A stretch of DNA of 64,000 nt from Natranaerobius thermophilus JW/NM-WN-LF (GTDB taxonomy: Bacteria > Bacillota > Natranaerobiia > Natranaerobiales > Natranaerobiaceae). The position numbers and the translations under genes were made by a program. The stretch's first letter is position 1, and every line of letters starts with the position of its first letter. This document shows, in pieces, positions 3,268-47,611 of this stretch. The stretch is taken from the NCBI RefSeq assembly GCF_000020005.1, contig NC_010718.1, positions 2,004,001-2,068,000 of the forward strand, given 5' to 3'. The notes below the pieces were generated by a model. That model ran no database searches. It had not been told where the DNA came from and saw only the letters and a program-made list of their open reading frames with translations.

Positions 3268-3321
3268 AGAAACCCCTCCCCCCGAATTTCTTAGTTCTGT
3301 TAAGTTATATGATATTTGAAT

Positions 3322-3388
3322 CAGTCTCCGTCCCGGAGTTAAGATAGTTTTAGACAGAAATCAAAACCCTCCGGGAGAAAGGAGACTG
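3322..3388 (+). promoter_or_regulatory. hairpin sequestering the transposase ribosome site (IS copy A)
   Basis: CAGTCTCC (3322-3329) pairs with GGAGACTG (3381-3388), and CCCGGAG (3332-3338) pairs with CTCCGGG (3369-3375). The right arm contains the GGAG ribosome site of the transposase. An mRNA started outside the element would fold and block translation, a known self-restraint device of insertion sequences. The arms are the same in copy B at 46316-46382. Confidence 0.6.
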
Positions 3389-3392
3389 ATCC

Positions 3393-4454
3393 ATGACTAA
3401 AGTTGTATGCCCTAGATGCAATAATAACTGCTCTGACAAGTTTTATAGGTTTGGTTTTGATAATCATGGTCATCAAAAGTATCAATGTCAAGAATGTTTT
3501 AGTCAGTTTGCACCTAAGACACTTTCTAAAGGCGGGGATAAAAGAGGTCCTAATAAACCTCGTAAATATCCCTCTTGCCCTAAATGCGGTAAAGCTACGT
3601 TTTTACATCACGACTATGAATTTTATTCTAATTTGAGGTGTTGGGACAAAAGCTGTAATCATTCTTTCTATGTCCCTAAACCTCAAAGTATTCCTGAACC
3701 TTCGCAACTTGATATTGACGGCAAAGTAGACTTCTCTAACATGAGACATTCTCTTCATACTGTTATTCGAGCTCTTTACCTGTACTTTATCAATGGTAGC
3801 TCTACTAGAGGTGTCTCACAGTTCCTTATTGATTGTGAAGGAATTAAAGTATCTCATGTTACTATTGCTGACTGGACTAAAAAGTTTGCTCCTCTGTTTC
3901 TTTATATCTCTAGATATCTAAAGCCAATAGATCTTGACTCTTCTGATGAGTGGCATGTCGACGAAACTGTAATTAAAATTAAAGGCAAAAGATTCTACGC
4001 CTGGACTGTTATTGATGCTGAAACTAGATTTGTGCTTGCATTTCATCTATCTCCTTACAGAGATAGCCAGGCTGCTTTTAAAGTGCTGAACTATGCTAAG
4101 AAACATTTTGGACAGCCTCATAGTATCGTTACAGATAGATACTGGGCTTACAATGCTCCAATTAAAGTTCTGTTTCCAAACTCTAATCACATCAGAGTCG
4201 AGTCTTTTCAAGATGATATCTCTAATAACTTAATTGAATCTTTTTTTCAGATTTTCAAAAGCTGGGTTAAGCAACGCAGAGGATTTGCTTCTTTCCAGTC
4301 AGCCAACAAGTTGATTGCGGTATTTGTGTTTGCTTTTAACTTTGTTAGGACAAGCAATGTTTTGAATCAGTCTACTCCTGCTCAAGTTGCTGGGATTAAT
4401 TACTCTAATCGTAATAGGACTTTTTGGCTTTTACATAGTAATAATGCCGCTTGA
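3393..4454 (+). CDS. IS6-type transposase (copy A)
   Basis: This is a DDE transposase of 353 residues. The N-terminal 90 residues hold paired zinc-ribbon motifs (CPRCNNNC, CQEC, CPKCGK, CxxxC) likely to bind the ends. A linker follows, then the IS240-type catalytic core. The core shows DEWHVDETVIKIKG (first Asp), VTDRYWAYN (second Asp) and the Glu of NNLIESFFQIFK. A C-terminal basic segment KQRRGF follows. The frame is intact and differs from copy B at only about a dozen residues, which suggests recent activity. ATG 3393 follows AAAGGAG. Confidence 0.9.
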   Translation: MTKVVCPRCNNNCSDKFYRFGFDNHGHQKYQCQECFSQFAPKTLSKGGDKRGPNKPRKYPSCPKCGKATFLHHDYEFYSNLRCWDKSCNHSFYVPKPQSIPEPSQLDIDGKVDFSNMRHSLHTVIRALYLYFINGSSTRGVSQFLIDCEGIKVSHVTIADWTKKFAPLFLYISRYLKPIDLDSSDEWHVDETVIKIKGKRFYAWTVIDAETRFVLAFHLSPYRDSQAAFKVLNYAKKHFGQPHSIVTDRYWAYNAPIKVLFPNSNHIRVESFQDDISNNLIESFFQIFKSWVKQRRGFASFQSANKLIAVFVFAFNFVRTSNVLNQSTPAQVAGINYSNRNRTFWLLHSNNAA

Positions 4455-4652
4455 CTGCCAAATCTTTTGAAATCTTGCGAGCAAATGAGCTTATTTTTCA
4501 TAACAACTTAACAGACTCAATTTCTTCCTAACTTCATCTCTTATTTGATTATATCATTTATTATAAAATTTTTTCTATATTTCTTCCTGATTTGTTTTTC
4601 TTAGCAAGGGAAAAGTTAAAGAAACAGAAAAGTTTGGTAATATAAAAATAAT

Positions 4653-14365: not shown

Positions 14366-15634
14366 TCACTTTCTAAAGTGATGCAAAATACCAACTTGAT
14401 AGGTACTAATATTAATTAGACCTATCTCGTCAAACCACTTATTGGGTAGTGCTAAACTTATGAGAGGACTTGATGAGTTTCTCCATTTATTCATGGAGAT
14501 TTTCTCAAATTCCCCTTTGTAGCCTTTTCTGCGAAGAGTTTTGTGTAGTTGTTTCCAACTTTTCCATTCTCGCATTTTCTTCATCCTAAGTCTTCTTCTA
14601 ATCCATTTCATTAAGTTCTCAAATTGTTTCTTACAATTGGCTATTCGGAAGTAATTTGCCCATCCTCTTAATACTGGATTTAGCTCTTTTATGATTTCGG
14701 ATAGATTTCTACCATGATTTCTTGGTGTAAGAGTTCTGACTTTTTCTTTGAATTTCTGTATCTTTTCAGGCTGGATGGATATGTTTTGACTCCTTATGAT
14801 AACTCCTAGGTAGGGAACACCTTTGCGGTCATTTGTTATGTGAGTTTTCTCTTTATTAACTGTTAGTTTTAATTCGTCTTCTAATATTTCAGTAGCTATA
14901 TCTTTATATCTTTTCGCTTGTCTTGGTGTGTAGGCGAATATTAAAATATCATCGGCATATCTTACTATTCGGATATTGCGACTCTTCATTTCTTTATCAA
15001 ATCTGTCTAGGTAAATGTTGGTTAGTAGTGGTGAGATCACTCCACCTTGAGGGCTCCCTATTTCTGTGTCTTCTATGGCTCCATCTTCCATTACTCCGGA
15101 CTTCAAAAATTTCTTTATTAATTTGAGAACACTTCCATCACTAACTTTCTTGGCTACTTCTTCGATAATCAACTCATGGTTTAATTTATCAAAGCATTTA
15201 GATAGGTCCATATCTACTACATGTCTTAGATTGTATTTATTAATGAACTGTTCTGATTTAGCTATTGCTTTGTGACATGAGCGATTAGGCCTGTATCCGT
15301 AGCTTGACGGGTGGAAGTCTGGATCAAAAATCGGTTGAAGTATATTTAACGTTGCTTGTTGGACTACCCTGTCTTTTACGGTTGGAATCCCTAATGGGCG
15401 AGTACTTCCATCTGGTTTGGGTATCTTAACTCGCCTCACAGGTTGTGGTTTGTATGCGCCAATTTTAAGGTCATGATGAAGGGTTTCCAGATTTTCTTCT
15501 AGGTTGGAGCCATAAGCCTCCACGGTTACCTGATCTATGCCGGGTTTACCTTTGTTAGCTCTGACCCTGCGGTAGGCGTCTTCTAGATTCTTTTTGGAAT
15601 AAATCTTGTCTATTAAACTGTACCATTTCTTCAT
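14366..15634 (-). CDS. ltrA: group II intron reverse transcriptase/maturase (intron 1)
   Basis: This is a reverse transcriptase and splicing helper of 422 residues. RT blocks appear in order: PKPDGSTRPLGIPTVKDR, YGYRPNRSCHKA, VVDMDLSKCFD, SPQGGVISPLL, the active-site YADD (IVRYADDILIF) and KTHITN. The maturase domain X contains RGWANYFRIANCKKQ. The protein ends without an HNH endonuclease, as in bacterial class C introns, which use a nicked or replicating target. I start at ATG 15634, 6 bases after AGGTG; GTG 15643 overlaps that site. The frame is intact. Confidence 0.93.
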   Translation of the reverse strand: MKKWYSLIDKIYSKKNLEDAYRRVRANKGKPGIDQVTVEAYGSNLEENLETLHHDLKIGAYKPQPVRRVKIPKPDGSTRPLGIPTVKDRVVQQATLNILQPIFDPDFHPSSYGYRPNRSCHKAIAKSEQFINKYNLRHVVDMDLSKCFDKLNHELIIEEVAKKVSDGSVLKLIKKFLKSGVMEDGAIEDTEIGSPQGGVISPLLTNIYLDRFDKEMKSRNIRIVRYADDILIFAYTPRQAKRYKDIATEILEDELKLTVNKEKTHITNDRKGVPYLGVIIRSQNISIQPEKIQKFKEKVRTLTPRNHGRNLSEIIKELNPVLRGWANYFRIANCKKQFENLMKWIRRRLRMKKMREWKSWKQLHKTLRRKGYKGEFEKISMNKWRNSSSPLISLALPNKWFDEIGLINISTYQVGILHHFRK

Positions 15635-16410
15635 CAATTGCACCTTCTTTCGCTGTGTGCCTTCCCTCTTTCTACACTTTTAGTTGTGGTTTCTTTGAAC
15701 GTGCTTAACGGTGTCTCTAGCTCTTTGGCAATCTTACCTATCAGGGTACGCTCTACTTCCACTAGGCGGACGGTAAAGCAAGTAAGCTCGTCACCACCTG
15801 ACTTTCCGTTCCCTTTAGCATTTCAGCTTCAGTTTTCTTCCTACCTAAAGTGTCTACTCGAGTTCTTGCTACACTCTTTGGTCTACTTTCACCCCTTCAC
15901 ACTACATAATTCCCTTTCGGTCATTATGCACCACTACAACCAGGTGTAGTGTCCTTTCGGTTTTATCCTCCAGACTGTTACCAGCTTTCTTTGGCCGAAA
16001 GTTCTTCACTACTACGGGTTCATCTGCCTCCTGCACTGCTTTAGTTAAAACTCATGTTTCCACTTGTCTTAACTTTACTTGTCGTCACAAGACAATACAG
16101 GTATCTCCCCGGTTAAGTCTGCTTGCCTGAATTTGAACGCATCCGTCCTAACCTTTTAGGTTATCCAGCTTTCGGGCTTTCCCATAATTTGCAAGGTTAC
16201 CCACCTAAAAGGCCATCCTCGGTTTGTTCTCACTATGTTCCAAATTCCCCCTTCAGCTTCCTTCAGACTCCACCGTCACCGGTGACGCCCTTGCCTTATG
16301 GTTGTCTTCCTGCTGGTTAGGTGACAGGGTTTCTTTCAACCCATCGGCGCGGCAGGCATGCCGGGCAATCGAGTAGGAGGTAGATAATTATTTTATCTAC
16401 CGACCTCTCA

Positions 16411-16450: not shown

Positions 16451-17878
16451 TTACGCTTTAACTTGTCGATAATATTCCGAAAAGAATAGGAAACCAAATC
16501 CTTTGATTACATCATTTCCAAGGGATTTGGATAAGACGGGGCTATTGGAAATTCTCCAGTAGCCCTTTCTTGTGTTTGCATATTCCCATGCTTTGTATTT
16601 ATTGGCTCCAAAGAACTTGAGCATTTTAAATTTTGTTCTCACTTTCTTCCATTGTTTCCAGTAAATCATGCGAATACGCCTTCTCATCCAACTGTCAGTA
16701 TTTATTAACAGATTCTTCATATCAGCTGGTTTAAAGTAGTTAACCCAACCCATAATGTATCGGCTAAGTTTCTTTGCTCTGGCTTCGTTGCTTATTCCAT
16801 AACTTCTAGATGTGAGTTCTTTTATTCTCGTTCTCATCTTTGTAACTGATTTAAGATGAACTCTTAATCTGGCTTTTCCTTTATGTCTGTAAAAGCCAAA
16901 CCCAAGAAATCTTACCTTTCCTACATAGGCAACTACAGTTTTATCTTTATTTACTTTGAGAAATAGTTTATTTTCGATGAAGGGTAGTATGTTCTTCAAG
17001 GTGCGTCCGGCACTTCTTCTGCTTTTACAAAAGATTAGCAGGTCGTCCGCATAGCGGACGAATTCGTGCCCCCTTTTCTCAAGTTCTTTATCCAATTCGT
17101 GGAGCATTATGTTACTGAGGATAGGGCTAAGAGGCCCGCCCTGGGGCACGCCAACTTCTGTATCCTTATAGGTGTGTTTGATCATTACTCCTGCTCTTAG
17201 ATATTTGTTGATAAGAGATATTACTCGACCGTCTTTTATTGTCTTAGATAGCACTTCTATCAATTTGCTCTGGTTTACTGTGTCAAAGTATTTCTCCAAG
17301 TCCATATCTACTACATATTTGTATCCTTCATTTATGTTTTGTTGACTTTTCTTAATTGCATCATGAGTACTGCGTCCAGGGCGAAAACCATAGCTGTTAT
17401 CTGAGAATTGCTCCTCATATATTGGAGATAGTACTTGGGCTATTGCTTGTTGGATCACCCTGTCTACCACTGTAGGTATGCCTAATTTTCTTTTCTTCCC
17501 ATCTTCTTTAGGTATCTCTACCCTTCTGACGGGATTAGGGCGGTATTTACCGTCCAGGACTCTTTGCCTGAGGTGGTCCCCGTTTTCTTTGAGATATTGT
17601 AGAAGTTCATCTACTCCCATCCCATCAATCCCGTGAGAGCCTTTGTTGGATTTTATTTTCTTGAATGCTTTATTCATGTTGTCTCTATCCAAAATTTCCT
17701 CTAGCAAATTCCCCTTCGACAAGTTTGCATTGGAGATGTTGTTTTCAGTTATCCTTAAAGAACTGTGCACTCCCGCATATCCTTCGTGTTCCGCACTATT
17801 CTTCTGCGGTGAGCCTTCTTTGCAGCTTTCGCCTGTCAGAAGTTGGCGGCACTTCATTCCTTTATTGGTAACAGTCAT
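16451..17878 (-). CDS. ltrA: group II intron reverse transcriptase/maturase (intron 2)
   Basis: This reverse transcriptase/maturase of 475 residues is only moderately similar to that of intron 1, so the introns are not recent duplicates of each other. RT motifs are PKEDGKKRKLGIPTVVDR, YGFRPGRSTHDA, VVDMDLEKYFD, VPQGGPLSPIL, YADD (FVRYADDLLIF) and KTVVAYVGKVRFLGF. Domain X includes MGWVNYFKPADMK. There is no HNH domain. An extra N-terminal stretch of about 55 residues precedes the RT core. ATG 17878 follows AGGAGGAG. Confidence 0.93.
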   Translation of the reverse strand: MTVTNKGMKCRQLLTGESCKEGSPQKNSAEHEGYAGVHSSLRITENNISNANLSKGNLLEEILDRDNMNKAFKKIKSNKGSHGIDGMGVDELLQYLKENGDHLRQRVLDGKYRPNPVRRVEIPKEDGKKRKLGIPTVVDRVIQQAIAQVLSPIYEEQFSDNSYGFRPGRSTHDAIKKSQQNINEGYKYVVDMDLEKYFDTVNQSKLIEVLSKTIKDGRVISLINKYLRAGVMIKHTYKDTEVGVPQGGPLSPILSNIMLHELDKELEKRGHEFVRYADDLLIFCKSRRSAGRTLKNILPFIENKLFLKVNKDKTVVAYVGKVRFLGFGFYRHKGKARLRVHLKSVTKMRTRIKELTSRSYGISNEARAKKLSRYIMGWVNYFKPADMKNLLINTDSWMRRRIRMIYWKQWKKVRTKFKMLKFFGANKYKAWEYANTRKGYWRISNSPVLSKSLGNDVIKGFGFLFFSEYYRQVKA

Positions 17879-21636: not shown

Positions 21637-23889
21637 CTAACCTATCGGGTCTTGTTCTTCAAATAAGACAATACAATCTCCATCTAAAAATTCAATAATA
21701 TCATATTTGATTACTAACATATCTAGAGTTTCCAGTAATAATTTTCTTCCGTTATTAGATTGAATTTCATTTAAAAACTTATTTAATTCTTGAATTATCT
21801 CCTGATCATCATTAGTATAGTTAGCTATTTTAGTTAACTTTTCCCTAGAAATATATCTATATTGATCAGAAATTCCTCTGTATTTTTCGTCAAGATACTG
21901 AGGGCTAATATCGTAAAATTTTTGTGTTATTTGTCTATCTATTGTATCGTATAAAGCATAATCACCCTGGAAATCTGGACTATAACTTAGTTCTGTATAA
22001 GTTATATGATATAGTTTTCCGGTACCTTCGCAACTACTACATCCTACTACACCTCGGCCATTGCAACGCTGACACCTCTCTTTTCCATCACCCTGGCAGC
22101 GCTGACAGTTTACGCTTCCACTACTATGACAAGTTGAACAGTTCTCTAATATTTGTGCATTACCGCCACAAGTTTTACACTTTACATAGCCATCACTGCA
22201 GTCACAGTATTCTCCAATTCCAGTCCCCTGACAGTTATGACAACTAACTTCTCTGCATTCTTCCGTTTCACGTTGCTTGGAATTATTACACTCTGAACAC
22301 AAAACTTTCTTGCCATGACAAACTGTACAAACATAACCATCTGTTTTACCTTTACCTTGACAGTGGGGACAGCTTTTAAGCCATTGGGTTTTGCAAGGAC
22401 AACTTTCAGTAACTTTTTCTGTTAGATAACCATTTCCGTTACAATAAGCACATTGATAAAAACCTTTTCCATCACACAAGTCACAATTTTGATAACCAAT
22501 TTTGCAATCCTGACATTCTTTTGTTATCTCTCCTCTTCCCGAACATTCATCACATTTAACAAATCCTTTGATACAATCTGGATTCTTACATTTTACTATA
22601 CCTGTATCACAGGCAGCAGGGCACTGGTTATACCCCGTTCCTTGACAGTCATCACATTTTATAGCTGTTGATGATGAAGGAAAAGTATAGCACCCTTCAC
22701 TTGCACGATGGTTAGTGACTTTTAAATTTGATTCCAATTGATCACCTGCTCTTAAAACACCTACAGGAATAGACATAGTATCAATATCATTAACTTGAGT
22801 TCTGACAAACTTATTTACTTGATACAGATAATTACATTTAGTAATGACTAACAAATACCCGGCTTTTTGGGAAAAGATACAGGTATCTCCTGCAAATAAT
22901 TTTTTTAACTTATCCATCCAAAAATTTGGATTTTTCTTTAACAAATTTACGTATTCTTCATTAATGTTAATTTTTGGAGTATTATTGAACTGATGATTCT
23001 TAAATTCAAAATTATCTTCAGGGAAATAAACTTCAAATTTTTGATAACCTTCATTGCTGGTTCTATTACTTTCATTTATTTCAATATAGTTGATCAAACT
23101 ACGAACTGAGTTTTTCTTACCTCGGCTAATAGCATATTTAAGTGGGTTTGTACCACGAGATTCAAATAAAGACGATTTACCTTGATCTAAAAGAGCTGCA
23201 ATTACATTTGTATTTTGTCTATCAATAGCCAAGTATAAGGGAGTTAATTCATCATATATTTTTTTACCGCCTAGTTCTGGGTTTGCTCCCAGGTTTAATA
23301 AATTTATCACAGTACTGTACATATCCCTCTCAACGGCAGTTATTAACGGTGTCCGTCCTTGTTCATCCCAGGTATTAATTTGATGATATCCTGCTAAAAC
23401 TGCTCTAGCAGTGCTATCTTTATCACCTTTTTCAATTAGTTCAAACAAATTCACTTCATTTGGGGTAAATCTCTGATTTAATAGTTCAATTCGTGAAACC
23501 CAAGTTGCTATCCAATTTCTTCTTTTGGGAACATACCATAAAATAGCAATTCTTAGAGAAATAACAGTTAAAAGAATAACATAATTTAGATATAACAATT
23601 CAGATCGATCACTTGTGTGTACTATTATGGGAATCACTAAACCGATAGCAAATAATAACTTGCCTAATATAGAAGTAAAAGATACCGACCAGACTAGTCC
23701 TCCTATGAAAAATAAAATTAGTATTATAAATTGAGTATACGAAGTTAAAGGTAGATTTACTAAGAAGACACTAGTAATGACAGGAAAAACTACACAACAT
23801 AAGGTTTCAGCAATTTTATAATTTCTTTCGTAATTATCTTTTATAACTTGTAAAAAATCTAATAAAATTTTTCTCAATCTAAATAACAT
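21637..23889 (-). CDS. membrane protein with ankyrin repeats and a large CxxC zinc-knuckle array
   Basis: The 750-residue protein has three parts. Residues about 25-120 hold four hydrophobic segments. Residues about 150-290 hold ankyrin-type repeats (DEQGRTPLITAVERD, INLLNLGANPEL, ELTPLYLAIDRQNTNVIAALLDQG, GTNPLKYAISRGK). Residues about 415-628 hold at least 14 CxxC pairs, many in CxxCxGxG form as in the zinc region of DnaJ (CDDCQGTG, CPHCQGKG, CQRCNGRG, CSSCEGTG). A unique C-terminal 120 residues follow. There is no J-domain. Ankyrin repeats and CxxCxGxG knuckles both bind proteins, so a membrane-bound scaffold or chaperone is possible; this is inference. The gene stands alone between the IS110 element and the metal-transport operon. 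I know no characterised match. Confidence 0.8.
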   Translation of the reverse strand: MLFRLRKILLDFLQVIKDNYERNYKIAETLCCVVFPVITSVFLVNLPLTSYTQFIILILFFIGGLVWSVSFTSILGKLLFAIGLVIPIIVHTSDRSELLYLNYVILLTVISLRIAILWYVPKRRNWIATWVSRIELLNQRFTPNEVNLFELIEKGDKDSTARAVLAGYHQINTWDEQGRTPLITAVERDMYSTVINLLNLGANPELGGKKIYDELTPLYLAIDRQNTNVIAALLDQGKSSLFESRGTNPLKYAISRGKKNSVRSLINYIEINESNRTSNEGYQKFEVYFPEDNFEFKNHQFNNTPKININEEYVNLLKKNPNFWMDKLKKLFAGDTCIFSQKAGYLLVITKCNYLYQVNKFVRTQVNDIDTMSIPVGVLRAGDQLESNLKVTNHRASEGCYTFPSSSTAIKCDDCQGTGYNQCPAACDTGIVKCKNPDCIKGFVKCDECSGRGEITKECQDCKIGYQNCDLCDGKGFYQCAYCNGNGYLTEKVTESCPCKTQWLKSCPHCQGKGKTDGYVCTVCHGKKVLCSECNNSKQRETEECREVSCHNCQGTGIGEYCDCSDGYVKCKTCGGNAQILENCSTCHSSGSVNCQRCQGDGKERCQRCNGRGVVGCSSCEGTGKLYHITYTELSYSPDFQGDYALYDTIDRQITQKFYDISPQYLDEKYRGISDQYRYISREKLTKIANYTNDDQEIIQELNKFLNEIQSNNGRKLLLETLDMLVIKYDIIEFLDGDCIVLFEEQDPIG

Positions 23890-24078: not shown

Positions 24079-24098
24079 GACAGCTGTCTTCAGCTGTC
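24079..24098 (-). terminator. terminator of the ECF metal-transport operon
   Basis: GACAGCTG and CAGCTGTC form a perfect 8-bp stem with loop TCTT, overlapping the last two bases of the ATPase stop codon. TATTTTAATTTC follows on the minus strand. Confidence 0.78.
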
Positions 24099-24930
24099 AA
24101 GTGTTATTAATTCCTTTCAAATAATACTCTGCTTGATCCAATGTAACTGGAATATCAACCTGATATCCCCTTTGTCTCAATCTATGAAAAAGCATAACCA
24201 ACATTGGTGGATGCAAACCTGCTTGATGCAGTTTATCCAAATCTATTAAAATTTCATCGGGCTTTCCCCTGGCAAGTATTTCTCCTTTTGATAAAACGTA
24301 TACATTGTCTGCCCAACCTGCAACCCAATTTAAATCATGGGTTGTTAACAACACTGTCACACCGTATTCATCATTTATCCAGTTTAATATTTTCTCTACT
24401 TCTTCATGGGATTTAGAGTCTAAAGAATCTAAAGGCTCGTCCAGTATTAACAGTTCAGGCTTATGTACTAAAGCACCCGCTAGTGCTACTTTCTGCTTTT
24501 CTCCTCCACTTAGATAATGAGGAATTTTATGTAGTATATGTTCAATTCCTAGTAATGAAGCCACTCTATTAACTTCTCTTTCGATTTGATCCCTAGCAAC
24601 TTTGGCTTGTCGCAGAGTAAAGGCTATATCATCATACACCCTAGGACCTATAATTTGTTCATCGACATTTTGAAGCACAACTCCTAATTTATGTCTGAGT
24701 CTGTTGAATTGTTTCCCAGGTATAAGTCCAGCCACTTCCACTTGACCCTGAGTGGGCTTAGTTAAACCAATAATCACCGATAGAATTGTAGTCTTTCCTG
24801 TTCCATTTGCCCCAAGGATGGCTAATTTTTCTCCCCGATGGGCGATTAGGCTTTTCTGATTTGAAATTTGCACTGTAGTGCCGTCAGAGTATACATGTTT
24901 TAAGTCTCTAACTATTATAATCGGATCCAT
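24097..24930 (-). CDS. cbiO: ECF-type metal transporter ATP-binding protein
   Basis: This is the ATPase that powers uptake through CbiMQ. The ABC domain shows Walker A GANGTGKTT, the Q-loop LQNVDEQI, signature LSGGEKQKVALAGALV, Walker B LLILDEPLDSLD and the switch His in TTHDLNW. I start at ATG 24930, after GGCGGTGAT; ATG 24945 lies upstream of that site. The start overlaps the end of cbiQ by 16 bases, which indicates coupled translation. A single ATPase gene suggests a homodimer, as in cobalt and nickel systems. Confidence 0.93.
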   Translation of the reverse strand: MDPIIIVRDLKHVYSDGTTVQISNQKSLIAHRGEKLAILGANGTGKTTILSVIIGLTKPTQGQVEVAGLIPGKQFNRLRHKLGVVLQNVDEQIIGPRVYDDIAFTLRQAKVARDQIEREVNRVASLLGIEHILHKIPHYLSGGEKQKVALAGALVHKPELLILDEPLDSLDSKSHEEVEKILNWINDEYGVTVLLTTHDLNWVAGWADNVYVLSKGEILARGKPDEILIDLDKLHQAGLHPPMLVMLFHRLRQRGYQVDIPVTLDQAEYYLKGINNT

Positions 24931-25631
24931 ATTATCACCGCCCATAAAAGCACAATTATTGAAAAAAACATAACCAAATAATCTTCTCTCTGCAAGTTAG
25001 TCCGGAAATTTAAACAGGGTAATGATCCGTTGTATCCCCTAATCATGAGTACCTGAAAAACCCGTTCACTGATAGTAATAGAATGAATTAATAATAAACC
25101 AATCATACCCGCTGTTGTTTTAATATTAATAATTAATGATAAAGGTCTTAATCCACCTCGTAATCTAATAGCTTTAATCATAGTTGAACTTTTTTGCAAT
25201 AAAATAAAAATTCCACGATATGTAAATAAAAATAAATCAGCCAAAAAGGACGGCATCAAAGATGATATTCTAGAAAAAATATCAACATAAGAAGTAGTTG
25301 ATAATAGAAAAATCAATACCAAGGCAGCAGTAATAGCTCTTAATATAATGATCCCTGCTACTTCCCAGGAATTTTGACTTAATAGAGCGGCAAATAACAA
25401 ACTAAAAAAAGCAGGGTATAATGATAAATGGAGGGTAGTAGCCAGGGGAATGCGCGCTATAAGATATAATGAAATTACGAATACTGCTAGCCCCCCTAAA
25501 AACAACAAATTAGGGCTGGTTATAATTAAAATTATCAGTAAGACTGTAAAAAATATTTTAATATCAGGACGTGCCCTGTGGAAACAACTATCACCGAAAT
25601 TGGCTATATAATCAATTCTCTCCAGGTGCAT
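24915..25631 (-). CDS. cbiQ: ECF transporter transmembrane T component
   Basis: CbiQ is the membrane scaffold that couples CbiO to CbiM. The 238-residue protein has five or six membrane segments. It shows the family's coupling helices, seen as AIRLRGG and VLMIRGYNG, where Ala-Arg-Gly/Arg-Gly motifs contact the ATPases. ATG 25631 follows GGGAGG. It starts 5 bases after the cbiM stop. Confidence 0.9.
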   Translation of the reverse strand: MHLERIDYIANFGDSCFHRARPDIKIFFTVLLIILIITSPNLLFLGGLAVFVISLYLIARIPLATTLHLSLYPAFFSLLFAALLSQNSWEVAGIIILRAITAALVLIFLLSTTSYVDIFSRISSLMPSFLADLFLFTYRGIFILLQKSSTMIKAIRLRGGLRPLSLIINIKTTAGMIGLLLIHSITISERVFQVLMIRGYNGSLPCLNFRTNLQREDYLVMFFSIIVLLWAVIIWIRL

Positions 25632-25636
25632 CGTTG

Positions 25637-26416
25637 TTACCTCCCTGGCAAACTATTTGTTGCCTCTAATAAATCTGGTTTGACCTTATAGATATAATTA
25701 GCGATAATGGCAGTTAATATAGCTTCTAAGGTAATACCAACAGCTAAAATCACTAACAAAGCGGTCCAGCCAGTTAAAGTGAGTATATGTATCTCGGACA
25801 GAGCTGTTTCTATACCCTCACCATTACCTTCAGAGTGTCCATGACTATCATGTCCATTATGATTGGCATGAGAACGATCATCATGGTCATGATCATGATC
25901 ACAATCATGTTGATGATAGGGTAATGCTTCTGCCCAGCTCACCGTAGCTCCTACTAAGCTCACTGTGAAGACCAAAGATACAATCAGGGCAGGTATCACA
26001 GCCAAAAAAGCTGCCTTCCAAACTGTAGTTTTAGATAATAAATAGCTAAATATCTTGGCCCCCACCAATACTTCTAAACCAATAACTAATGTGTTTAATC
26101 CCACAATTGTAATTCCTCCATGGCCTACAAGGGCAAGAATGAAATTAACAACAAAAACTGATAAAAATCCAATCCCCGGTCCTACTAAAATTCCAGCCAG
26201 TACTGCCATGCTCAAATGTATGGGTAAAAATCCTAGAGGAACTGACATGGCAACTAGCATAAAGGCAGCTGCCATTGCTGCTTTTGGTATCCGATAACGT
26301 GCTTCTGTACTATCTACTCTGGATAACAATAAATAAATAATCAAAACTGCTACCAAATATCCGGCTAGCCACCAGGGTACTGGGATTATTCCGTCAGGCA
26401 AATGAATATGACTCAT
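25637..26416 (-). CDS. cbiM: ECF transporter substrate-binding component, CbiM/NikM type, with a His-rich loop
   Basis: This is the metal-binding membrane subunit, 259 residues with six or seven membrane segments. The N-terminus MSHIHLPDG resembles the His-containing N-terminus that ligates Co or Ni in CbiM/NikM. A loop near residues 165-200 is extremely rich in His and Asp, placed before the final membrane helix. The last part may therefore represent a fused CbiN/NikN-like helix; no separate cbiN exists. ATG 26416 follows AAGGAGG. The metal could be Co, Ni or Zn; the facing Fur-family regulator and the His loop leave zinc open. Confidence 0.9.
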   Translation of the reverse strand: MSHIHLPDGIIPVPWWLAGYLVAVLIIYLLLSRVDSTEARYRIPKAAMAAAFMLVAMSVPLGFLPIHLSMAVLAGILVGPGIGFLSVFVVNFILALVGHGGITIVGLNTLVIGLEVLVGAKIFSYLLSKTTVWKAAFLAVIPALIVSLVFTVSLVGATVSWAEALPYHQHDCDHDHDHDDRSHANHNGHDSHGHSEGNGEGIETALSEIHILTLTGWTALLVILAVGITLEAILTAIIANYIYKVKPDLLEATNSLPGR

Positions 26417-26443
26417 ATAAATCCTCCTTCCCCTTTCCCTTAC

Positions 26444-26464
26444 AAATGCAAGTCACTTGCATTT
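26444..26464. promoter_or_regulatory. perfect 21-bp palindromic operator
   Basis: Two 10-bp arms, AAATGCAAGT and its complement, flank a single central C. It lies 28 bases upstream of cbiM in the divergent region shared with the Fur-family gene. The 21-bp size with odd centre fits Fur/Zur boxes. Confidence 0.75.
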
Positions 26465-34073: not shown

Positions 34074-37000
34074 CTAAGATGAAGTCGTTTGCTGTTCAGT
34101 GTTAGTCCTTCTACTTGCTAACCATATACTGACATCATCCATCATTGTGTAAATTACGGGTATGATAATAAGAGTCAATAAAGTAGAAACCAGTAGGCCA
34201 CCAATTGTTACTGTAGCCATAGGTGCGATAGCTTCAGCTCCTTCACCAATACCAAGTGCTAGAGGTACCATACCAATTATCGTAGTTGACGTGGTCATTA
34301 ATATTGGTCTCAGTCGTTTTTTACCAGCTTCTACAACTGCCTGATGTCGCGAGTACCCTCGTTCTTTGTATAGTAAATTAATATAATCAACCATTACTAT
34401 CCCATTATTAACAACTATACCTGCCAACATTATTACACCAATAAATGCCACCAAACTAAAGGTACGACCGGTAATTAATAGTGAAGATACTACTCCTAAC
34501 ATAGTCAATGGAATGGTAAACATGATAATAAATGGATACAATAATGAACCAAATTGAGAAGCCATCACCATATACACAAGAATTACTGATAATCCTAATG
34601 CCAAAGTAAGTTCTTCAAAAGCTTCCACAGTATCCCGGTATATACCCATGTATTCGATATTATACCCAGTAGGTAAGTCTTTTTTAGCCAATTCATCCTG
34701 AATATCATCCATAACAGAACCGAGATCTCTCCCTTCAATTAAGCCGGTTACATTACCCGAACGTAACTGATCTTGTCTTTCAATATCCCGAGGCGCTTCT
34801 CCTACACTGGTATCTGCTATTTCTTCTAAAGGGACAAGATTACCTTGAGGATTCTGAATAAAAAACGAGTCTATAGTTGCCAAATCCCACTCTTCAGGAT
34901 GTTCCATCAGTATTTCCATGTTAAACTCTTCTCCATCTTCACGGTATAAGGATACTAATTGTCCACTCAATGCAGTGTTTAGATAAGCACCTGTTTGATA
35001 AGGTGTTAAACCATGAGTAAGAGCTTGATCCCTATTCATGTTTATAGTTAGTTGTGGAGCTAATTCCTCAAAGCTAGTAGAAACTTCTTCAGTACCTTCT
35101 ATAGATCGTACTGTCTCTGCAATTTCTTCAGTTAATTTTTCTAATGTTTCCAGGTCATCTCCTCTAACTGAAATATCTATATCGTCATCGAGTCCTACGG
35201 CTCCTGCAGCTAAGTCCTTTTCAGTAACAGTTACACTTACCCCAGGAATCCTAGGATATTCTTCCCTTATGTCTTCTACAACTTCCGTTGTTTCTTTATC
35301 TCTTTCAGATTCATCCACTAATTCTACTTCTATAGATCCAACATTAGAAACTTCATCATCTAGTAAGCCACCACCACCAATACTAGTAAAAACCGTTTCT
35401 ACTTCTGTTATTTCCATCAACATTTCTTCATATTCCCCTATAACTGCTTCAGTTTGCTCGATAGGCATTCCTACAGGTGTTTCAATATTAACTGAAATTT
35501 CACCAGTATCCAGTGGTGGCAAAAATTCAAAACCAACTAGGGGTATTAAAGATAGTGTCACAAATAAAACTACTACAAATATAGTACCAATTAATTTTCG
35601 ACTATTTAATCCCCACTCTATTATATACTCATATTTTTCCGTCATTACTTGTAACTTTTGATCAAATATTTTAGTTATTTTATTTGAGCGTTCTGACAAA
35701 TTGACGTCTGTTCCAATAAATTTAGTAGTCATCAAAGGAATTACTCCTGACGCTACAATTAGAGATGAAACTAATGCAAAAGTAACAGTCCATGCTAAAG
35801 GTGCAAAAACAATACTGGCTACTCCTTCTACAAAAACAATAGGTAAAAAAGCTATTACACTAGTTATCGTAGCAGCTATAATGGCACTAGTGACCTCTTT
35901 ACTTCCTTCTATTGCAGCATCAACAGGAGGTAACCCTTCTTCTCTCTTTCGAAATATATTTTCTAGTATAACGATAGCACTATCCACCATCATACCAATA
36001 CCGAGCGCTAGTCCTCCTAAGGTAATAAAATTCAATGTATATTCTTGAAAATATATTAGGTTAAAAGTTGCTATCACAGAAATTGGTATTGCAATTCCTA
36101 TAATAATAGTAGATCTTATATTTCCTAAAAACAACCACAAAACAACCATAGCAACTATTGCTCCCGAAACTCCCATATTCACTAATGTACTTATACTAGC
36201 TTCAATAAATTCACTTTGATCCATGGCTACATCAAACCTAATATCTTCAGGCAATTCTTCTTCTAATTCATCAAACTCTTCTTGAACTACATTGGCTACA
36301 TCAACCGTATTAGCTTCACTTTCCTTCCGTACTGATAGAGATACCGTGGAATCCCCATTAATTTTAGTGATCGGTCTTTGTCTCTCAGTTGTATCTTTAA
36401 CCTCTGCTATTTCTTTAAGTCTTATAGGAATGCCACCAGATTCAGTAACTATCAGTTGTTCAATTTCTTCTACAGTTTCAAACTCACCTTCTACCTCAAT
36501 TAAATATTCCCTTCGTCCATCTTGAATTTCACCTCCGGAGACGTCAGCATTAGAGGCATATATTAATTCACCTAACTCTTCTAACGATATTTCATAAGCA
36601 GAAAGCTTATACGGGTCTACCTGGATTTGGATTTCCCGCTCTACACCACCTGCCACTTCAACCAATGCAACACCTTCAAGTCGTTCAATTCTACTAGCTA
36701 AAACATTTTCTGCAAGTTCAGTCATCTCTTGATCTTCTAAATCCCCTTCAATCCCGGCTTGAATCACCGGAAGCATATCAGGATCTAATTGTATAACTGA
36801 AGGACGTCCAATTTCATCTGGCAACTCTTCCATCACCATATCAACCATTTCCCTGACTTCTAAGGCTGCGAAATCCATATCTGTACCCCAGTCAAACCTG
36901 ATAATAATTTCGCTTTCACCAGGACGGGAAGTCGACATTATGGTATCTATGCCATCAACAGTAGAAAGTGCATCCTCCAAATGAGAGGTAACCATGTTCT

Positions 37001-37178
37001 CAACTTCCTCAGGACCAGCCCCTTCATATTCTGTCGCAATCATTACAACAGGCAAATCTATATCAGGGTATAAATCGATTGGTGTTTCTGAAACAGCAAT
37101 AAATCCTATTAATATTACCCCAATTACAACCATTAAAACTCCAATAGGTTGCTTTATTCCTATACCTGCAAGATTCAT
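34074..37178 (-). CDS. RND-family efflux pump (AcrB type) 1
   Basis: This proton- or sodium-driven exporter of 1,034 residues has the standard two-fold plan of 12 membrane segments and two large outer loops. The first helix is followed by IDLYPDIDLPVV. Helix 4 carries GGLALGIGMMVDSAIVILENI, with one Asp of the usual pair (VDSA in place of VDDA). PLTMLGVVSSLLITG and VNNGIVMVDYINLL lie in the second half. Outer loops are rich in Glu and Asp. The start overlaps the adaptor stop by 4 bases (ATGA). Confidence 0.95.
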   Translation of the reverse strand: MNLAGIGIKQPIGVLMVVIGVILIGFIAVSETPIDLYPDIDLPVVMIATEYEGAGPEEVENMVTSHLEDALSTVDGIDTIMSTSRPGESEIIIRFDWGTDMDFAALEVREMVDMVMEELPDEIGRPSVIQLDPDMLPVIQAGIEGDLEDQEMTELAENVLASRIERLEGVALVEVAGGVEREIQIQVDPYKLSAYEISLEELGELIYASNADVSGGEIQDGRREYLIEVEGEFETVEEIEQLIVTESGGIPIRLKEIAEVKDTTERQRPITKINGDSTVSLSVRKESEANTVDVANVVQEEFDELEEELPEDIRFDVAMDQSEFIEASISTLVNMGVSGAIVAMVVLWLFLGNIRSTIIIGIAIPISVIATFNLIYFQEYTLNFITLGGLALGIGMMVDSAIVILENIFRKREEGLPPVDAAIEGSKEVTSAIIAATITSVIAFLPIVFVEGVASIVFAPLAWTVTFALVSSLIVASGVIPLMTTKFIGTDVNLSERSNKITKIFDQKLQVMTEKYEYIIEWGLNSRKLIGTIFVVVLFVTLSLIPLVGFEFLPPLDTGEISVNIETPVGMPIEQTEAVIGEYEEMLMEITEVETVFTSIGGGGLLDDEVSNVGSIEVELVDESERDKETTEVVEDIREEYPRIPGVSVTVTEKDLAAGAVGLDDDIDISVRGDDLETLEKLTEEIAETVRSIEGTEEVSTSFEELAPQLTINMNRDQALTHGLTPYQTGAYLNTALSGQLVSLYREDGEEFNMEILMEHPEEWDLATIDSFFIQNPQGNLVPLEEIADTSVGEAPRDIERQDQLRSGNVTGLIEGRDLGSVMDDIQDELAKKDLPTGYNIEYMGIYRDTVEAFEELTLALGLSVILVYMVMASQFGSLLYPFIIMFTIPLTMLGVVSSLLITGRTFSLVAFIGVIMLAGIVVNNGIVMVDYINLLYKERGYSRHQAVVEAGKKRLRPILMTTSTTIIGMVPLALGIGEGAEAIAPMATVTIGGLLVSTLLTLIIIPVIYTMMDDVSIWLASRRTNTEQQTTSS

Positions 37179-38563
37179 GAATCATCACCCATTTCTGTCG
37201 CATCTACTCTGATACCTTGTTCAATTTCTTGAAAGCCCTCTATTATGACTAAATCATCTTCAGATAGACCTGAAACGATTTCAATGTAACCGTCTTCATT
37301 AATTCCTGTTTTTACCTCGATAAATTGTACTTGTTGATTTTCTGTACTTTCATCAACTATGAACACTCCTGTTTCTCCCTCTTCCTCTACAACTGCATGT
37401 TGAGGTATTGCTAGAGCATCTTCAGATTTTTCTATAGTCACATTTACTTGAGTATACATTCCAGCCCGTACTTGTTTTTCTATCTCAGGTGTTAACTCTA
37501 TTTCCATAGGATATCCCTTAGCATTTTCTTCTGGAGGCAATTGACCAACGTGATGTATCATTCCTTCAAACTCTTCATCTAAAGCAGATGGAATTTTAAC
37601 ATCGACAGTTTCTCCATCACTAACCTGGTTTACATAAGACTCAGGTAAGCCAGCCAACACCTGGTAGCTATCCGGATCTAGCATTACAAAGGCAGGGGAT
37701 TCGGAACCAACTAGTTCTCCCTCTTCGGCATCAACCATAGTAATTTCACCATCTACAGGAGCTGTGATTTTAGTCCGATCAATCATTCTTTCAGCTAATT
37801 TTACCCCTGTTTCAGCCCTTTTTATCTGGGATCGCAAGGCATCTAACTCTTCGTCCCTAGCTCCTTCTTCAACTGATTGTTTATAGCCTTCAGCAGCCCT
37901 CAGTTGCTCTTTTGCATTTTTGTACTGTAAAGTCATCTGTTCCAGTTCTTGATCTGAGGCATAACCGTCCTGATGTAATGTTTCTACTCTTTCTAATTCC
38001 CTTTCCATTTGCTCTTTCGCTTCTCTGGCTCTTTCAACACTAGTTTCAGCTTCTTTTCTTTCTCCCGTTCTAGCACCCTTTTTAGCATTTTCGAGTTGTG
38101 CTTTAGCTCCATCTAAGTTTGCCTGAGCTTCTTCCAATTGAAGTTGATAATCGCCATCATCTAGTTCCATTAATAAATCACCATGGCTAACATAGTCTCC
38201 TTCTTCTACATAAAGAGATTTCACTTCACCTGCAACTTCCGGAACTATAATCCTTCTTTCTGTAGGATCTACACTTCCTATTACTGTGGCTTTTTTTTCG
38301 ATATCCTGTATTTCAGGATTGGTCACTTCTACTAAAGGGCGTTCTTCTTCAACAACTATTTCCTCTTCAAAGAACAAATCCCGATTCAAATACCCAACAG
38401 CCAGAACTAAAACTATTAAAAGCACTCCACTTACTATTTTTTTATTTTTGTTAAACCAAGTTCTAATTTTTGACTCTTGATTGTAAGTTGCTTTTTTGTT
38501 TTGAGCCTCTGTATCTGTACCTGAAGACTTTTGTTTTTGTATCTGCTGGTTTTGTTTAGACAT
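37175..38563 (-). CDS. membrane-fusion (adaptor) protein of efflux operon 1
   Basis: This is the HlyD/AcrA-type adaptor, about 462 residues. A basic N-terminus and one membrane helix (about residues 32-48) come first, then half a lipoyl domain (VEEGDYVSHGDLLMELDDG). A long coiled-coil hairpin (about residues 120-225), the second lipoyl half (KITAPVDGEI), a beta barrel and a membrane-proximal domain follow. It links the RND pump to the TolC-like partner. I start at ATG 38563 after GGAGGAATAATT; ATG 38581 precedes that site. Confidence 0.93.
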   Translation of the reverse strand: MSKQNQQIQKQKSSGTDTEAQNKKATYNQESKIRTWFNKNKKIVSGVLLIVLVLAVGYLNRDLFFEEEIVVEEERPLVEVTNPEIQDIEKKATVIGSVDPTERRIIVPEVAGEVKSLYVEEGDYVSHGDLLMELDDGDYQLQLEEAQANLDGAKAQLENAKKGARTGERKEAETSVERAREAKEQMERELERVETLHQDGYASDQELEQMTLQYKNAKEQLRAAEGYKQSVEEGARDEELDALRSQIKRAETGVKLAERMIDRTKITAPVDGEITMVDAEEGELVGSESPAFVMLDPDSYQVLAGLPESYVNQVSDGETVDVKIPSALDEEFEGMIHHVGQLPPEENAKGYPMEIELTPEIEKQVRAGMYTQVNVTIEKSEDALAIPQHAVVEEEGETGVFIVDESTENQQVQFIEVKTGINEDGYIEIVSGLSEDDLVIIEGFQEIEQGIRVDATEMGDDS

Positions 38564-38586
38564 AATTATTCCTCCAATCACTAAAA

Positions 38587-40161
38587 CTAATTTTTTCTGA
38601 ACCCATCGCCATTACTGTCAAATCCATTATTATTTAAACCATCGTTTTGAGCTGGATCATTATCGTTCATATCATTTCTAAAACCATTACCTTCTAGGGA
38701 GTCTTCGTCTAAATTTATTTGATCTAAAATGTTTTCAGTTAAAAACCCTTCAGAAACTAATTCTAACTGTCTTTCTGCAAGGAAAAGTTGTAAATCGGAT
38801 AAGTTGTTCATCATTTTCACTTCTTCTGTTTCTATTTCTCCTTCTAGGGTTTCTAAATCAGAGACCATTCCCAATTCTTCTTGAATTAAAATACCTTCAA
38901 AAAAATCTTCTTGTACTTGAAGTGCATCTTCTGAAAGATTATATTGAGATTTAGTCTCTTTATATTCATCGTAAACATTTCTCATAACTTTTTCCATTGA
39001 AACTCGAGTATCATTGTAATTTAGTTCTGACATTTGCAGTTCAAGTTCAGCCATTTCACATTCAAGGGAGTTTTTTCCATGATTATCTTCCATCCACTCC
39101 AAGTTGTCCTTAGCAAATTCTAATTCTTGTTCGGCAATTTCTATCTCTTTTCCATGGCCTAACAATTTATCTATTAATTCATTAATATCATAATCTTCCA
39201 TTTCGGCATGGATTGGTTCTAAATGATATTCCGTATTCAAGGGTTGACCAAGTAACCTGGAAAACTGCCTCTTAAGGTCTCTATACTGATTTTCCAAAGA
39301 CTGCTGTTCTTGTTTTAGTTGTTCTTTTTCTAATTTAGCAGCATCTAGCTCTAGGTCTACAGATTCTCCTACTTCACGTTTAGCCTTAATTTCACCTACT
39401 TGTTCATACATAAGCTCCATAGCCTCATCCATATAATCCAGAGCTTCTTCCATCATTAGTAAACCAGTGTAAAGGGCTTCGGCTTGAAACATAATTTTTT
39501 CTTGTCCTTGTTGCCATTTAAGCTCTGCTAAATCTTTTTGTTGTTCTAGCTCCCTCTTTTTTTGTTCAACCTCTAAAATTAAATCATCTAAACCGTCTTC
39601 ATAGTCGACATCATCAAAGGCCTGTTCTACATCATCTAAGTAATTATTCCAGCCGTCTTCAATATGAGCAAATAATTCACTCACTGCATCTTTTATTTCA
39701 TCTTCATATTCAAAATCTATTTCATTAAATTCATTACCATTAGGAAAAGGTGCTTCACTATCTTCTATATCAATCTCGTCAATTTGGCTAAAGATTTCTA
39801 TCATCATATTCTTAAAGATTTCTTCGGCTTCATCAAAATCAGGATCAATGTCCAACAAGGTATCTTCTAAGTTCTTGATATCATCTTGAAGGTCTTCTAA
39901 TTGATTATGTCTGTCTTCAGCCATATCTACACCAACAACTAGTTGCTTAAGTTGTATTCTTATTTTCTGTGCTTCAGGTGAGTTTTCTAGAGCCAGTTCT
40001 CTAGCTTTTGTAATATCTAGTTCTTTTACATTTTCTTCCTGAACATTCGTTTCTTCTGAAGCTTCTAAGACTTTTTCATTATTTGAAAAAAAACTTAGAA
40101 TAGGATTAAATACAAGTACAACAGTAATCATTACTGAAGCAATTTGCTTAAATCTACGCAT
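38587..40161 (-). CDS. TolC-like (OEP family) secreted helical protein 1
   Basis: The first gene of efflux operon 1 encodes 524 residues with a signal peptide (MRRFKQIASVMITVVLVFNP). Long coiled coils follow, with the TolC-like segments LTGLLMMEEALDYMDEAM-like ALYTGLLMMEEALD, SRLLGQPLNTEY and YDEYKETKSQYNLSEDALQ. The region that would form a membrane barrel is hard to see. An extra acidic insertion occupies residues about 85-190. The C-terminus is Asn/Asp rich. In a Gram-positive it may act as a peptidoglycan-spanning tunnel and not as an outer-membrane pore; that is inference. ATG 40161 follows AAGGATGG. Confidence 0.75.
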   Translation of the reverse strand: MRRFKQIASVMITVVLVFNPILSFFSNNEKVLEASEETNVQEENVKELDITKARELALENSPEAQKIRIQLKQLVVGVDMAEDRHNQLEDLQDDIKNLEDTLLDIDPDFDEAEEIFKNMMIEIFSQIDEIDIEDSEAPFPNGNEFNEIDFEYEDEIKDAVSELFAHIEDGWNNYLDDVEQAFDDVDYEDGLDDLILEVEQKKRELEQQKDLAELKWQQGQEKIMFQAEALYTGLLMMEEALDYMDEAMELMYEQVGEIKAKREVGESVDLELDAAKLEKEQLKQEQQSLENQYRDLKRQFSRLLGQPLNTEYHLEPIHAEMEDYDINELIDKLLGHGKEIEIAEQELEFAKDNLEWMEDNHGKNSLECEMAELELQMSELNYNDTRVSMEKVMRNVYDEYKETKSQYNLSEDALQVQEDFFEGILIQEELGMVSDLETLEGEIETEEVKMMNNLSDLQLFLAERQLELVSEGFLTENILDQINLDEDSLEGNGFRNDMNDNDPAQNDGLNNNGFDSNGDGFRKN

Positions 40162-41216: not shown

Positions 41217-41801
41217 TCAAATCTCTAATCCTTTTTTAAATGTGCCAATAACTTCCTTGATTGTTTCGTCATCAGGGGGGTTACCTTCAAGTAATATCAT
41301 AGACGAAACGACCTCCATAAAAGCTCCCCAGAAAATTCTGGCCAATAAATCTATTGGCTTTTTTTCGATTTCTCCTTCATTGATGGCTAATTGAAAAGTC
41401 TGTTCCATATCATGTAGCAAACTTTTTCTAACTTCCATTATCTGAGAGGTCAATTTTTGTTGAAATGGATGATTATTGCTTAGCAATAAATACGCTATTT
41501 GTCTATTCTCTGAAACAAAATAAACATTGTTTTTCAAAAATTCCTCTAATTTTATCCAAATACTGCGTTCATCATTTGGATCTATTCTTACTACTTGATA
41601 ATACTGCTTAAAACCTTCTCTAAGCATTTCATGAAACAGTTCCTCTTTGCTATTAAAATATTCATAAATCGTACCCTTGCCTATCCCTGCTGCATCAGCT
41701 ATCTCCTGAACCTTTACTTGATAGAAGTTTTCTTCACTAAAAACTTTCGCCGCAGCCACTAAAATATCCATTCTCTTATTGCTTTTGTCAATTTTTGACA
41801 A
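41217..41801 (-). CDS. TetR-family regulator of efflux operon 2
   Basis: The 194-residue repressor has helix-turn-helix VQEIADAAGIGKGTIYEYF followed by NSKEELF. It closes operon 2, as its counterpart does in operon 1. TTG 41801 is the likely start, behind GTGGTGAT, overlapping the RND stop by 14 bases. The near-perfect GC-rich palindrome at 47553-47574 is its probable operator. Confidence 0.9.
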   Translation of the reverse strand: MSKIDKSNKRMDILVAAAKVFSEENFYQVKVQEIADAAGIGKGTIYEYFNSKEELFHEMLREGFKQYYQVVRIDPNDERSIWIKLEEFLKNNVYFVSENRQIAYLLLSNNHPFQQKLTSQIMEVRKSLLHDMEQTFQLAINEGEIEKKPIDLLARIFWGAFMEVVSSMILLEGNPPDDETIKEVIGTFKKGLEI

Positions 41802-44800
41802 TTAAATCACCACTCTCTTCTTTTCGTGCTAATTTACTGTGAAATCTTAATCTGAGATCATCAAACAAGCTATAAACAACTGGTATTAACACTAAAGTAA
41901 TTATAGTAGATACGGCTAGGCCACCGATAATTGCAATCGCCATTGGAGCTCTAACTTCGGCACCTTCTCCTGCACCACTAGCCATAGGGAGCATCCCCAA
42001 AATGGTTGTTAAAACAGTCATTAATATCGGACGCAATCTTATTTTACCAGCTGTTACAATGGCCTCTATTCTATTATAACCTTGTTCATGATATAGCTTA
42101 TTAATGAAGTCTACCATAACAATTCCATTATTAACAACAATCCCGGCAAGCATAATAACACCCATAAAGGCGACTATACTCAAAGAATGTCCCGTTACAA
42201 GTAATGCCAAAATAACTCCGATTAAAGCCAGGGGAATTGTAAACATAACTATAAAAGGATATAAAAGGGATTCAAACTGGGCAGCCATTACCATATAAAC
42301 TAACAGTACAGCCAAAATTAACGCTAATCCCAAACCTTCGAAACTTTCCATCATCATTTCATAGGTCCCACCAAAATCCATTGTATAATCAGGTGGTAAT
42401 TCAATACTTTCATCTAGCACTTCCCGAATATCACCAGCGGTTCTTCCAATATCTCGACCTTCAATCTGAACACCTACAGTACCTGTTCGCACCCTATCCT
42501 CTCTCTCAATTTGACGGGGTGTTTCTGCCATTTCAAGAGAAGCCACTTCTTCTAGCGGTACCTGTTCACCTGTTGGAGTGTTAATTAACAAACTTTCTAA
42601 TGTTGACACGCTAATACCTTGAGACGGTTCCATTTCCATGGTAATATCATATTCTTCACCGCCTTCTCTGTAAAAGGAGACCAGTTCCCCTTCACTTACT
42701 TGTCGTACAAAATTCCCGATAGTTACTGTAGTTAACCCGTAAGAGTCTGCACTTGCCTCATCTACATCAATCTGTATTTCCATAGTGGCATCCTCAAAAT
42801 TTGTTGTAGTGTTAACTACACCAGGAACTGTTAATGCATTCTCCGCTATTTCATCGGAAATTGATTCAAGTTCTTCCATATCATCGCCTTTAATTAAAAC
42901 AGTTAAATCTTCTTCACCTTCCATTCCTCCACCTTCTTCAGCCATGTCATCTGCAGAAACTGTAACATCAACTCCGCCGCGTTCAGGGATCAACCCTCTG
43001 ATTTCATCCACTACTTCAAAAGTGGTACGCTGATGATCGTCCTCCATAATAACATTTATCGTACCGGAACGACTATCTCCACCAACAACAAAATCTCCAC
43101 CACCACCTGCTGTGGCAAATACTGTTTCTACTCCTTCAACTTGTGAAATCTCCTCTTCTAACTCTAACAAATTATCACTGGTTGTATCTAAAGGTGTCCC
43201 AACGGGGTACTGAATATCCACAGTAATTTCTCCTGAATCCTCGGGAGGGAAAAACTCAAAACCCATTAAAGGGAAAATCAATACAGTGATAATCATTAAT
43301 CCTATAAAAGAAACGATTACTACAAAACGCTTACTTAATACCCAATCAACTAATTGACCATACTTGTTTGTGAGCCACTGCAAACCTTGATCCATTTTCC
43401 TTGGGAGATAACTTTTTCGATTAAAATCAACTCCTTCACCCATAACCTTATCCGTTAACATAGGGACTAGAGTTAAAGCCACTAATAGTGAAGCGAATAA
43501 TGCAAATACAACTGTCCAAGCCATGGGTTCAAAAATAATTCCTGCTATACCTTCAGTATAAGCCGCCGGTAAAAAAGCTGCCATACTTGTCAATGTAGCT
43601 GCTATAATGGCTCCTGAAATCTCTTTACTCCCTTGTAATGCACCTTCATAAGATGATAATCCTTGTTCTCTTTTCCTGAATATATTTTCTAATAAAATAA
43701 TGGAACTATCCACAACCATACCAATACCCAGGGTTAAACCACCCATTGTTATTAAATTCATAGTGTATCCTTGAAAATACATTAAGTTAAATGTGCTAAT
43801 AATTGAAATTGGAATTGCAAAACCGATAATCAAAGTTGTTCTGAAATTACCTAAAAATAACCAGAGAACTATCATTGCTAGTATGGCACCTATAATTCCC
43901 ATTTCTATTATGCTATCAATGGATTCCTCGATAAAGGTACTTTGATCGGTAACAATTTCAAATTGCACATTTCCAGGAAGGCTTTCCTCCAAATTAGCCA
44001 GCTCAGCTCGAACATCTTGGGCCACTCTCACTGCATTGGCATCACTTTGATTTCTTATACCCAAAGAGACTGACGGTTCTTGATTGATTCTACTTAGTGG
44101 TTCCATGTCCTCTACAGTATCCTCAACCCTGGCTACATCTCCTAGTTTTACAGGACTTTCGCCTTCAACTCCAATTTGAATATCTTTAATTTCATCTGGA
44201 TCCTCAAATTGTCCAATAGTTCTAATTGCGTATTTTCCATCACCGTCCCTGATTTCACCAGCAGAAATATCCATATTATTTGCTGCTATTGCTTCTCTAA
44301 TATTTTCATAACTGACTTCTTGATAGCTAGAGAGCAGATATGGATCAACATGTATTTTAATTTCTCTTTCAACACCACCCATGACATTAACTTCTCCGAC
44401 ACCTTCAATACGCTCCACCTGGGTTTGTATTGTCCCCTCTGCCAGCTCACTGATTTCCTGTAAATCCATTTCGGGAGCATTTATACCAACTTGTAAAATA
44501 GGCATCATATCCGGGTCTAATTGCATCACAGTAGGATCGCCTGCGTCATCAGGTAGTTGTTCGCCTATCATATCAATAAGTTCCCTAGTATCAAGAGCAG
44601 CAAAGTCCATATCCGTGCCCCAATCAAATTCCATAATAATTTGACTGCTATCCTGTTGAGAAATAGAAGTAATTTGAGATAAATTGTCTACTGTAGATAA
44701 GGTCTCTTCTAAGGGACGACTGACCATATTTTCAACTTCATGGGGGCCAGCCCCTTCGTAATCAGTTTGTACAAACAAAACTGGTAATTCCATATCAGGA

Positions 44801-46262: not shown

Positions 46263-46286
46263 AATTAGCCTCCCAACCATTTATTT

Positions 46287-47512: not shown

Positions 47513-47552
47513 ATTTATTTCTAAGGGGAAAAATTATTTTTTGGATATTTAC

Positions 47553-47574
47553 TCCGTCCGACCGGTCGGTCGGA
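47553..47574. promoter_or_regulatory. GC-rich TetR-type operator stranded by the IS
   Basis: TCCGTCCGACC and GGTCGGTCGGA are complementary at 10 of 11 positions, with the perfect core CCGACCGGTCGG. It lies after the TolC-like gene and just upstream of IS copy B. Before the insertion it would have sat about 60 bases before the adaptor gene. Confidence 0.7.
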
Positions 47575-47611
47575 ATTTGCCATACCAATACATATTATTA
47601 AATGATAAAAT

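Follow-up and report, generated by a model that had tools for sequence, protein, structure and literature searches.

The gene described here lies on the minus strand of a 64,000-nucleotide window of the chromosome of Natranaerobius thermophilus JW/NM-WN-LF, a halophilic, alkaliphilic, anaerobic thermophile of soda lake origin. Its frame starts with ATG, comprises 750 codons with zero internal stops and is preceded by a well-placed AAGGAG ribosome-binding site about 11 nt 5' of the start codon. In the encoded protein, four hydrophobic segments are followed by about four ankyrin repeats, a middle region of ~130 residues, a 218-residue cysteine array and a C-terminal region of ~120 residues. G002, a genome from a different family of the Natranaerobiales, encodes a homologue whose parts follow each other in the same order. 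The features of the gene and of its upstream side are as follows:

21637..23889, minus strand: complete gene for the 750-residue protein, a single open frame with a same-order homologue in G002
23550..23820, minus strand: four hydrophobic (membrane) segments, residues ~24-113, placed by hydropathy peaks and flanking charges
23065..23454, minus strand: about four ankyrin repeats, residues ~146-275, from Pfam and from phmmer matches to solved ankyrins
22660..23064, minus strand: middle region, residues ~276-410, 36% identical to the G002 homologue, with the motifs KAGYL, PVGxLR and YTFP conserved
22006..22659, minus strand: zinc-knuckle array, residues 411-628 (218 residues), with 14 CxxC and four variant pairs, 18 pairs in all
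21640..22005, minus strand: C-terminal region, residues 629-750, 36% identical to the G002 homologue, with the motifs ISPxxxDxKYRG and KYDIIExxDGD conserved
24079..24098, minus strand: intrinsic terminator between CbiO and the gene, an 8-pair stem GACAGCTG-AAGA-CAGCTGTC plus TATTTTAATT
24097..26416, minus strand: CbiM/CbiQ/CbiO cobalt/nickel-type ECF operon, the upstream neighbour, assigned by Pfam/NCBIfam and judged unrelated

Within the array, 14 CxxC motifs were counted at residues 412-620. Shuffling the whole protein gave a mean of 2.4 such motifs and a maximum of 9 (2000 shuffles), and shuffling the Cys-rich segment alone gave a mean of 5.9 and a maximum of 13. There are also four variant pairs, namely CxxxC at 423/427 (CPAAC), CxxxxC at 434/439 (CKNPDC) and CxC at 497/499 and 562/564 (written here as CPC and CDC/CRC). 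The resulting 18 pairs comprise 36 cysteines. They are spaced 9-19 residues apart, in most cases 10-13, or about 11 residues per pair. The preliminary description of this DNA had given at least 14 CxxC knuckles and an array far longer than the four knuckles of DnaJ; the CxxC count and the length hold, and the total of knuckles was slightly too low, since the variant pairs are conserved as well. A possible internal duplication of seven pairs (pairs 1-7 against 12-18, lag 11) was marginal (p 0.014 and 0.033, neither corrected for the lags tested).

The Pfam family DnaJ_CXXCXGXG (PF00684) matched the protein with an E-value of 2.6e-7 and 31.2 bits, 1.5 below the cut-off of 32.7, and the G002 homologue with 17.5 bits, far under the cut-off. 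When the array profile was compared with solved structures, the zinc domains of DnaJ and anti-TRAP were nearest, all of them weakly, and the AlphaFold models, made with no alignment, were too poor to use (pLDDT 31 for residues 281-750 and 39 for residues 125-285). With two pairs per zinc, as in DnaJ, the 18 pairs would suffice for about nine zinc ions, a putative stoichiometry. The DnaJ fold itself may not carry over, because the array is both tighter, at its short step per pair, and longer.

The G002 homologue has 704 residues and is about 35% identical. Over the array the two proteins align with zero indels and identical CxxC spacing, and all 36 paired cysteines are kept. Counting every array cysteine, 36/37 are kept, against 36/152 (24%) of the residues other than Cys and Gly (p about 2e-17); the one cysteine lost is the unpaired Cys 545, and 24/29 array glycines are kept. 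Such invariance of the paired cysteines amid low identity strongly supports a functional array of metal type over a chance fusion. The frame 21637-23889 is a real, intact gene under strong selection.

The ankyrin part was recognized by Pfam as Ank_2 (1.5e-12; 48.3 bits against a cut-off of 27.3) and Ank (4.1e-7), both over the gathering cut-off, and phmmer matched it to solved ankyrins with E-values down to 7e-20. In the G002 homologue the repeats fall below Pfam recognition; the region is degenerate there, and the alignment shows that ankyrin-like stretches such as LKMGADP are kept. Neither the middle region nor the C-terminal region had a convincing match in Pfam, NCBIfam or PDB sequences. 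A weak KPBB_C match in the C-terminal region (9e-4) was dropped, because the G002 homologue has no such match.

Hydropathy peaks of membrane length lie at residues 39, 63, 81 and 107. Lysine and arginine residues flank this block (six in residues 1-25 and five in 119-147) and are almost missing from its loops, which suggests that both ends of the block are on the cytosolic side. Accordingly placed by charge and by cysteine chemistry, the four segments would fix the protein to the cytoplasmic membrane, and the chain beyond residue ~118 would lie in the cytosol, whose reducing conditions keep thiols in the form that binds zinc. A disulfide-exchanging role outside the cell is unlikely because the charge distribution places the array on the cytosolic side.

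No J-domain was detected by Pfam or NCBIfam, the HPD motif is absent from both homologues, and the Pfam scan of the 750-residue protein gave no DnaJ_C match. The preliminary description had seen one frame joining membrane segments, ankyrin repeats and a long DnaJ-type array without a J-domain, in an order known from no characterised protein; hydropathy, Pfam and NCBIfam bear this out, with the count slightly extended to 18 pairs, and the order of membrane block, ankyrin repeats and array was absent from all libraries used here. In the literature, we found no paper linking ankyrin repeats to a DnaJ zinc finger.

As for its distribution, only N. thermophilus and G002 among 398 sampled genomes of the phylum carry the gene, whether the whole profile or just that of the array is used for the search, and it is absent from G001, which belongs to the same family as N. 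thermophilus. Two other classes supplied 142 further genome entries (a part of them already sampled, and run with no positive control), none of which contained a relative. Family-profile scans of genome contigs (two) and of viral sequences also gave none, a weak result in that the first scan used poorly placed patterns. Within this sampling, it is a rare accessory gene of the Natranaerobiales. The protein is an assembly of known modules in a new arrangement, conserved yet rare, with a putative function.

Based on the above results, we tentatively suggest that the protein is a membrane-anchored, cytosol-facing, J-domain-less zinc-finger holdase or adaptor of the DnaJ type that would work in the manner of the plant ORANGE-type proteins. 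Judging from cysteine chemistry, the 18 pairs would bind about nine Zn2+ and fold as small beta-hairpins arranged in a long ladder. If ORANGE, BSD2 and ZnJ2 are a guide, this ladder would serve as an extended protein-binding surface, which could hold a client at the membrane, be it an unfolded protein or a membrane complex in assembly, without help from Hsp70. The ankyrin repeats would select the client or partner. In the two genomes, no recurrent neighbour or client suggesting chaperoning was found. The reading of domains in the preliminary description is right, and of the roles that it suggested, chaperone or scaffold is the best candidate; defence and a link to the metal operon found no support here.

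A purely scaffolding or sensing role, in which the ankyrin repeats and the zinc array both assemble a complex at the membrane without chaperone activity, is possible and nearly as likely as a holdase or adaptor. Interaction is the classic role of both repeat types, and the conserved regions flanking the array could mean specific partners. However, no co-occurring gene and no common neighbour was found. The neighbours in G002 are a CAP-like protein (named from sequence only), an uncharacterised membrane protein and a BON-domain protein, and the two genomes share no orthologous neighbours, so that a survey of the homologues' surroundings revealed no recurrent ones. Sequence alone does not separate this role from that of a holdase.

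It is less likely, and on the whole improbable, that the protein is a store or buffer for zinc or another soft metal at the membrane, fed by the adjoining ECF importer. As described earlier, the gene lies between a mobile element (IS110) on one side and a metal-uptake operon (CbiM/CbiQ/CbiO) on the other; with 36 invariant thiols, the 18 pairs could have room for about nine ions, and CbiM has a His-rich loop. However, the terminator separates the gene from CbiO, and in G002 the CbiM homologue is located at about 1.84 Mb, about 0.8 Mb from the homologue of the array gene at 2.66 Mb. In addition, a perfect 21-base palindrome, AAATGCAAGTCACTTGCATTT, occurs at 26443-26463, in the gap that separates cbiM from a divergent gene of the Fur family. 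It was found neither at the array gene nor elsewhere in the genome, even allowing three mismatches, and, being unique, is probably a dedicated, Fur-type operator. Cotranscription with CbiMQO was rejected because of the terminator, and a shared metal regulon was rejected by the genome search for the operator. Together, the terminator, the distant operon in G002 and the unique operator lend no support to the link with metal uptake that the preliminary description had implied. Moreover, a buffer needs neither ankyrin repeats nor a strictly gap-free array.

An anti-phage or competition function, also named in the preliminary description, is very improbable. The rare, patchy distribution and the position beside an IS110 element would suit it, and PADLOC models containing ankyrin repeats match residues 148-271; these matches are, however, confined to the generic ankyrin part, and defence genes are adjacent in neither genome. 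The absence of common neighbours, together with the terminator and the operator located elsewhere, speaks against membership in a metal-uptake or a defence system. Finally, although the domain combination is unusual, a chance joining of two frames or an annotation artefact is practically ruled out by the full-length, same-order homologue in another family, in which both domain junctions are conserved.

Other parts of the window also deserve mention. Two copies of an IS240-type transposase (3291-4531 and 46285-47524), in the same orientation and 96.9% identical over 1241 bases, lie about 43 kb apart and enclose the array gene plus one RND set. Two adjoining genes for group II intron reverse transcriptases/maturases are at 14366-15643 and 16451-17878, both on the minus strand. 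An apparent tripartite RND set at 34074-40161 (minus strand) consists of an AcrB-type pump, an HlyD adaptor and a TolC-like outer-membrane efflux protein (Pfam OEP, 1.5e-10). A second apparent set is found at 41788-49210 (minus strand), where a TolC-like protein (47612-49210; 1.4e-12) lies beside acidic ORFs of 1040 and 456 residues. The TolC-like genes are unexpected here: the Natranaerobiales have been described as monoderm and as lacking markers of an outer membrane (PMC5007114), and a search of three genomes from the order gave no Omp85.

Among known systems, type I DnaJ (Hsp40) is related by its CxxCxGxG knuckles, through a PF00684 match just short of the cut-off (2.6e-7), to the 750-residue protein, which differs in lacking the J-domain, HPD and DnaJ_C, in its 18 pairs against four and in its four membrane segments. 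A canonical, complete DnaJ is encoded elsewhere in the same genome, so the protein is no replacement for it. J-domain-less DnaJ zinc-finger proteins have been characterised mainly in plastids and with four knuckles; FIP and LQY1 are two of them, and FIP is membrane-anchored. The DnaJE1 type is defined by a DnaJ-type zinc domain without a J-domain, with four CxxCxGxG repeats, and its members act as holdases that do not depend on Hsp70; in ORANGE, two membrane segments are predicted ahead of the zinc domain (PMC12063368). ZnJ2 binds zinc and prevents aggregation without reductase activity (PMC5818400). The 750-residue protein resembles the DnaJE1/ORANGE type in its DnaJ-type zinc domain without a J-domain (here a near-cut-off Pfam match), and ORANGE and FIP also in having a membrane anchor, of one or more segments, ahead of the zinc domain. 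Unlike it, ORANGE, BSD2, ZnJ2, LQY1 and FIP have exactly four knuckles rather than 18 pairs and no ankyrin repeats, and they are eukaryotic and plastid proteins. Beyond the zinc domain no family match suggests similarity to the ORANGE type. Having no J-domain, the protein falls outside DnaJ; it is not strictly a four-knuckle DnaJE1 and may work like one.

Anti-TRAP (RtpA) has a single DnaJ-like knuckle unit with a weak profile match (E 0.012), but it is a 53-residue soluble TRAP inhibitor with one zinc site. Closer in array length is Halobaculum WP_222923734.1, which also has 18 CxxC pairs at ~11-residue steps and membrane segments, whereas its array precedes the membrane segments, its C-terminus is winged-helix-like and it has no ankyrin repeats. 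The Halobaculum array proteins have 812 residues, are plasmid-encoded and show pair steps of 10, 11 or 15, and hhalign against the haloarchaeal array gave 98.5% for a match that takes in the final pairs and the strand following the array. On the Halobacterium salinarum plasmid PHS2, an unannotated ORF directly 3' of an ISH6 transposase (L009:4190-5209, plus strand) encodes a 12-pair array; it differs in its order and in having neither a membrane segment nor ankyrin repeats. A huge-phage protein (LR756504.1; L010:1894-3585) has 14 CxxC at 11-residue steps, but its N-terminal half is unrelated, and the protein has neither membrane segments nor ankyrin repeats.

It is conceivable, if rather doubtful, that long DnaJ-type arrays of about 18 pairs constitute a distinct, undescribed zinc ladder of bacteria, haloarchaea and huge phages, that is, a membrane-linked or soluble module for client holding or scaffolding independent of Hsp70, which the Natranaerobiales would couple to ankyrin repeats. 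The similar length of the haloarchaeal arrays suggests a recurring solution, possibly of salty habitats, a small-sample impression. Compared with the four-knuckle plastid proteins, a membrane version from bacteria, its 18 pairs conserved Cys-for-Cys across two families, would be a simple system for studying the role of the zinc domain without Hsp70 and the question of what a long array adds.
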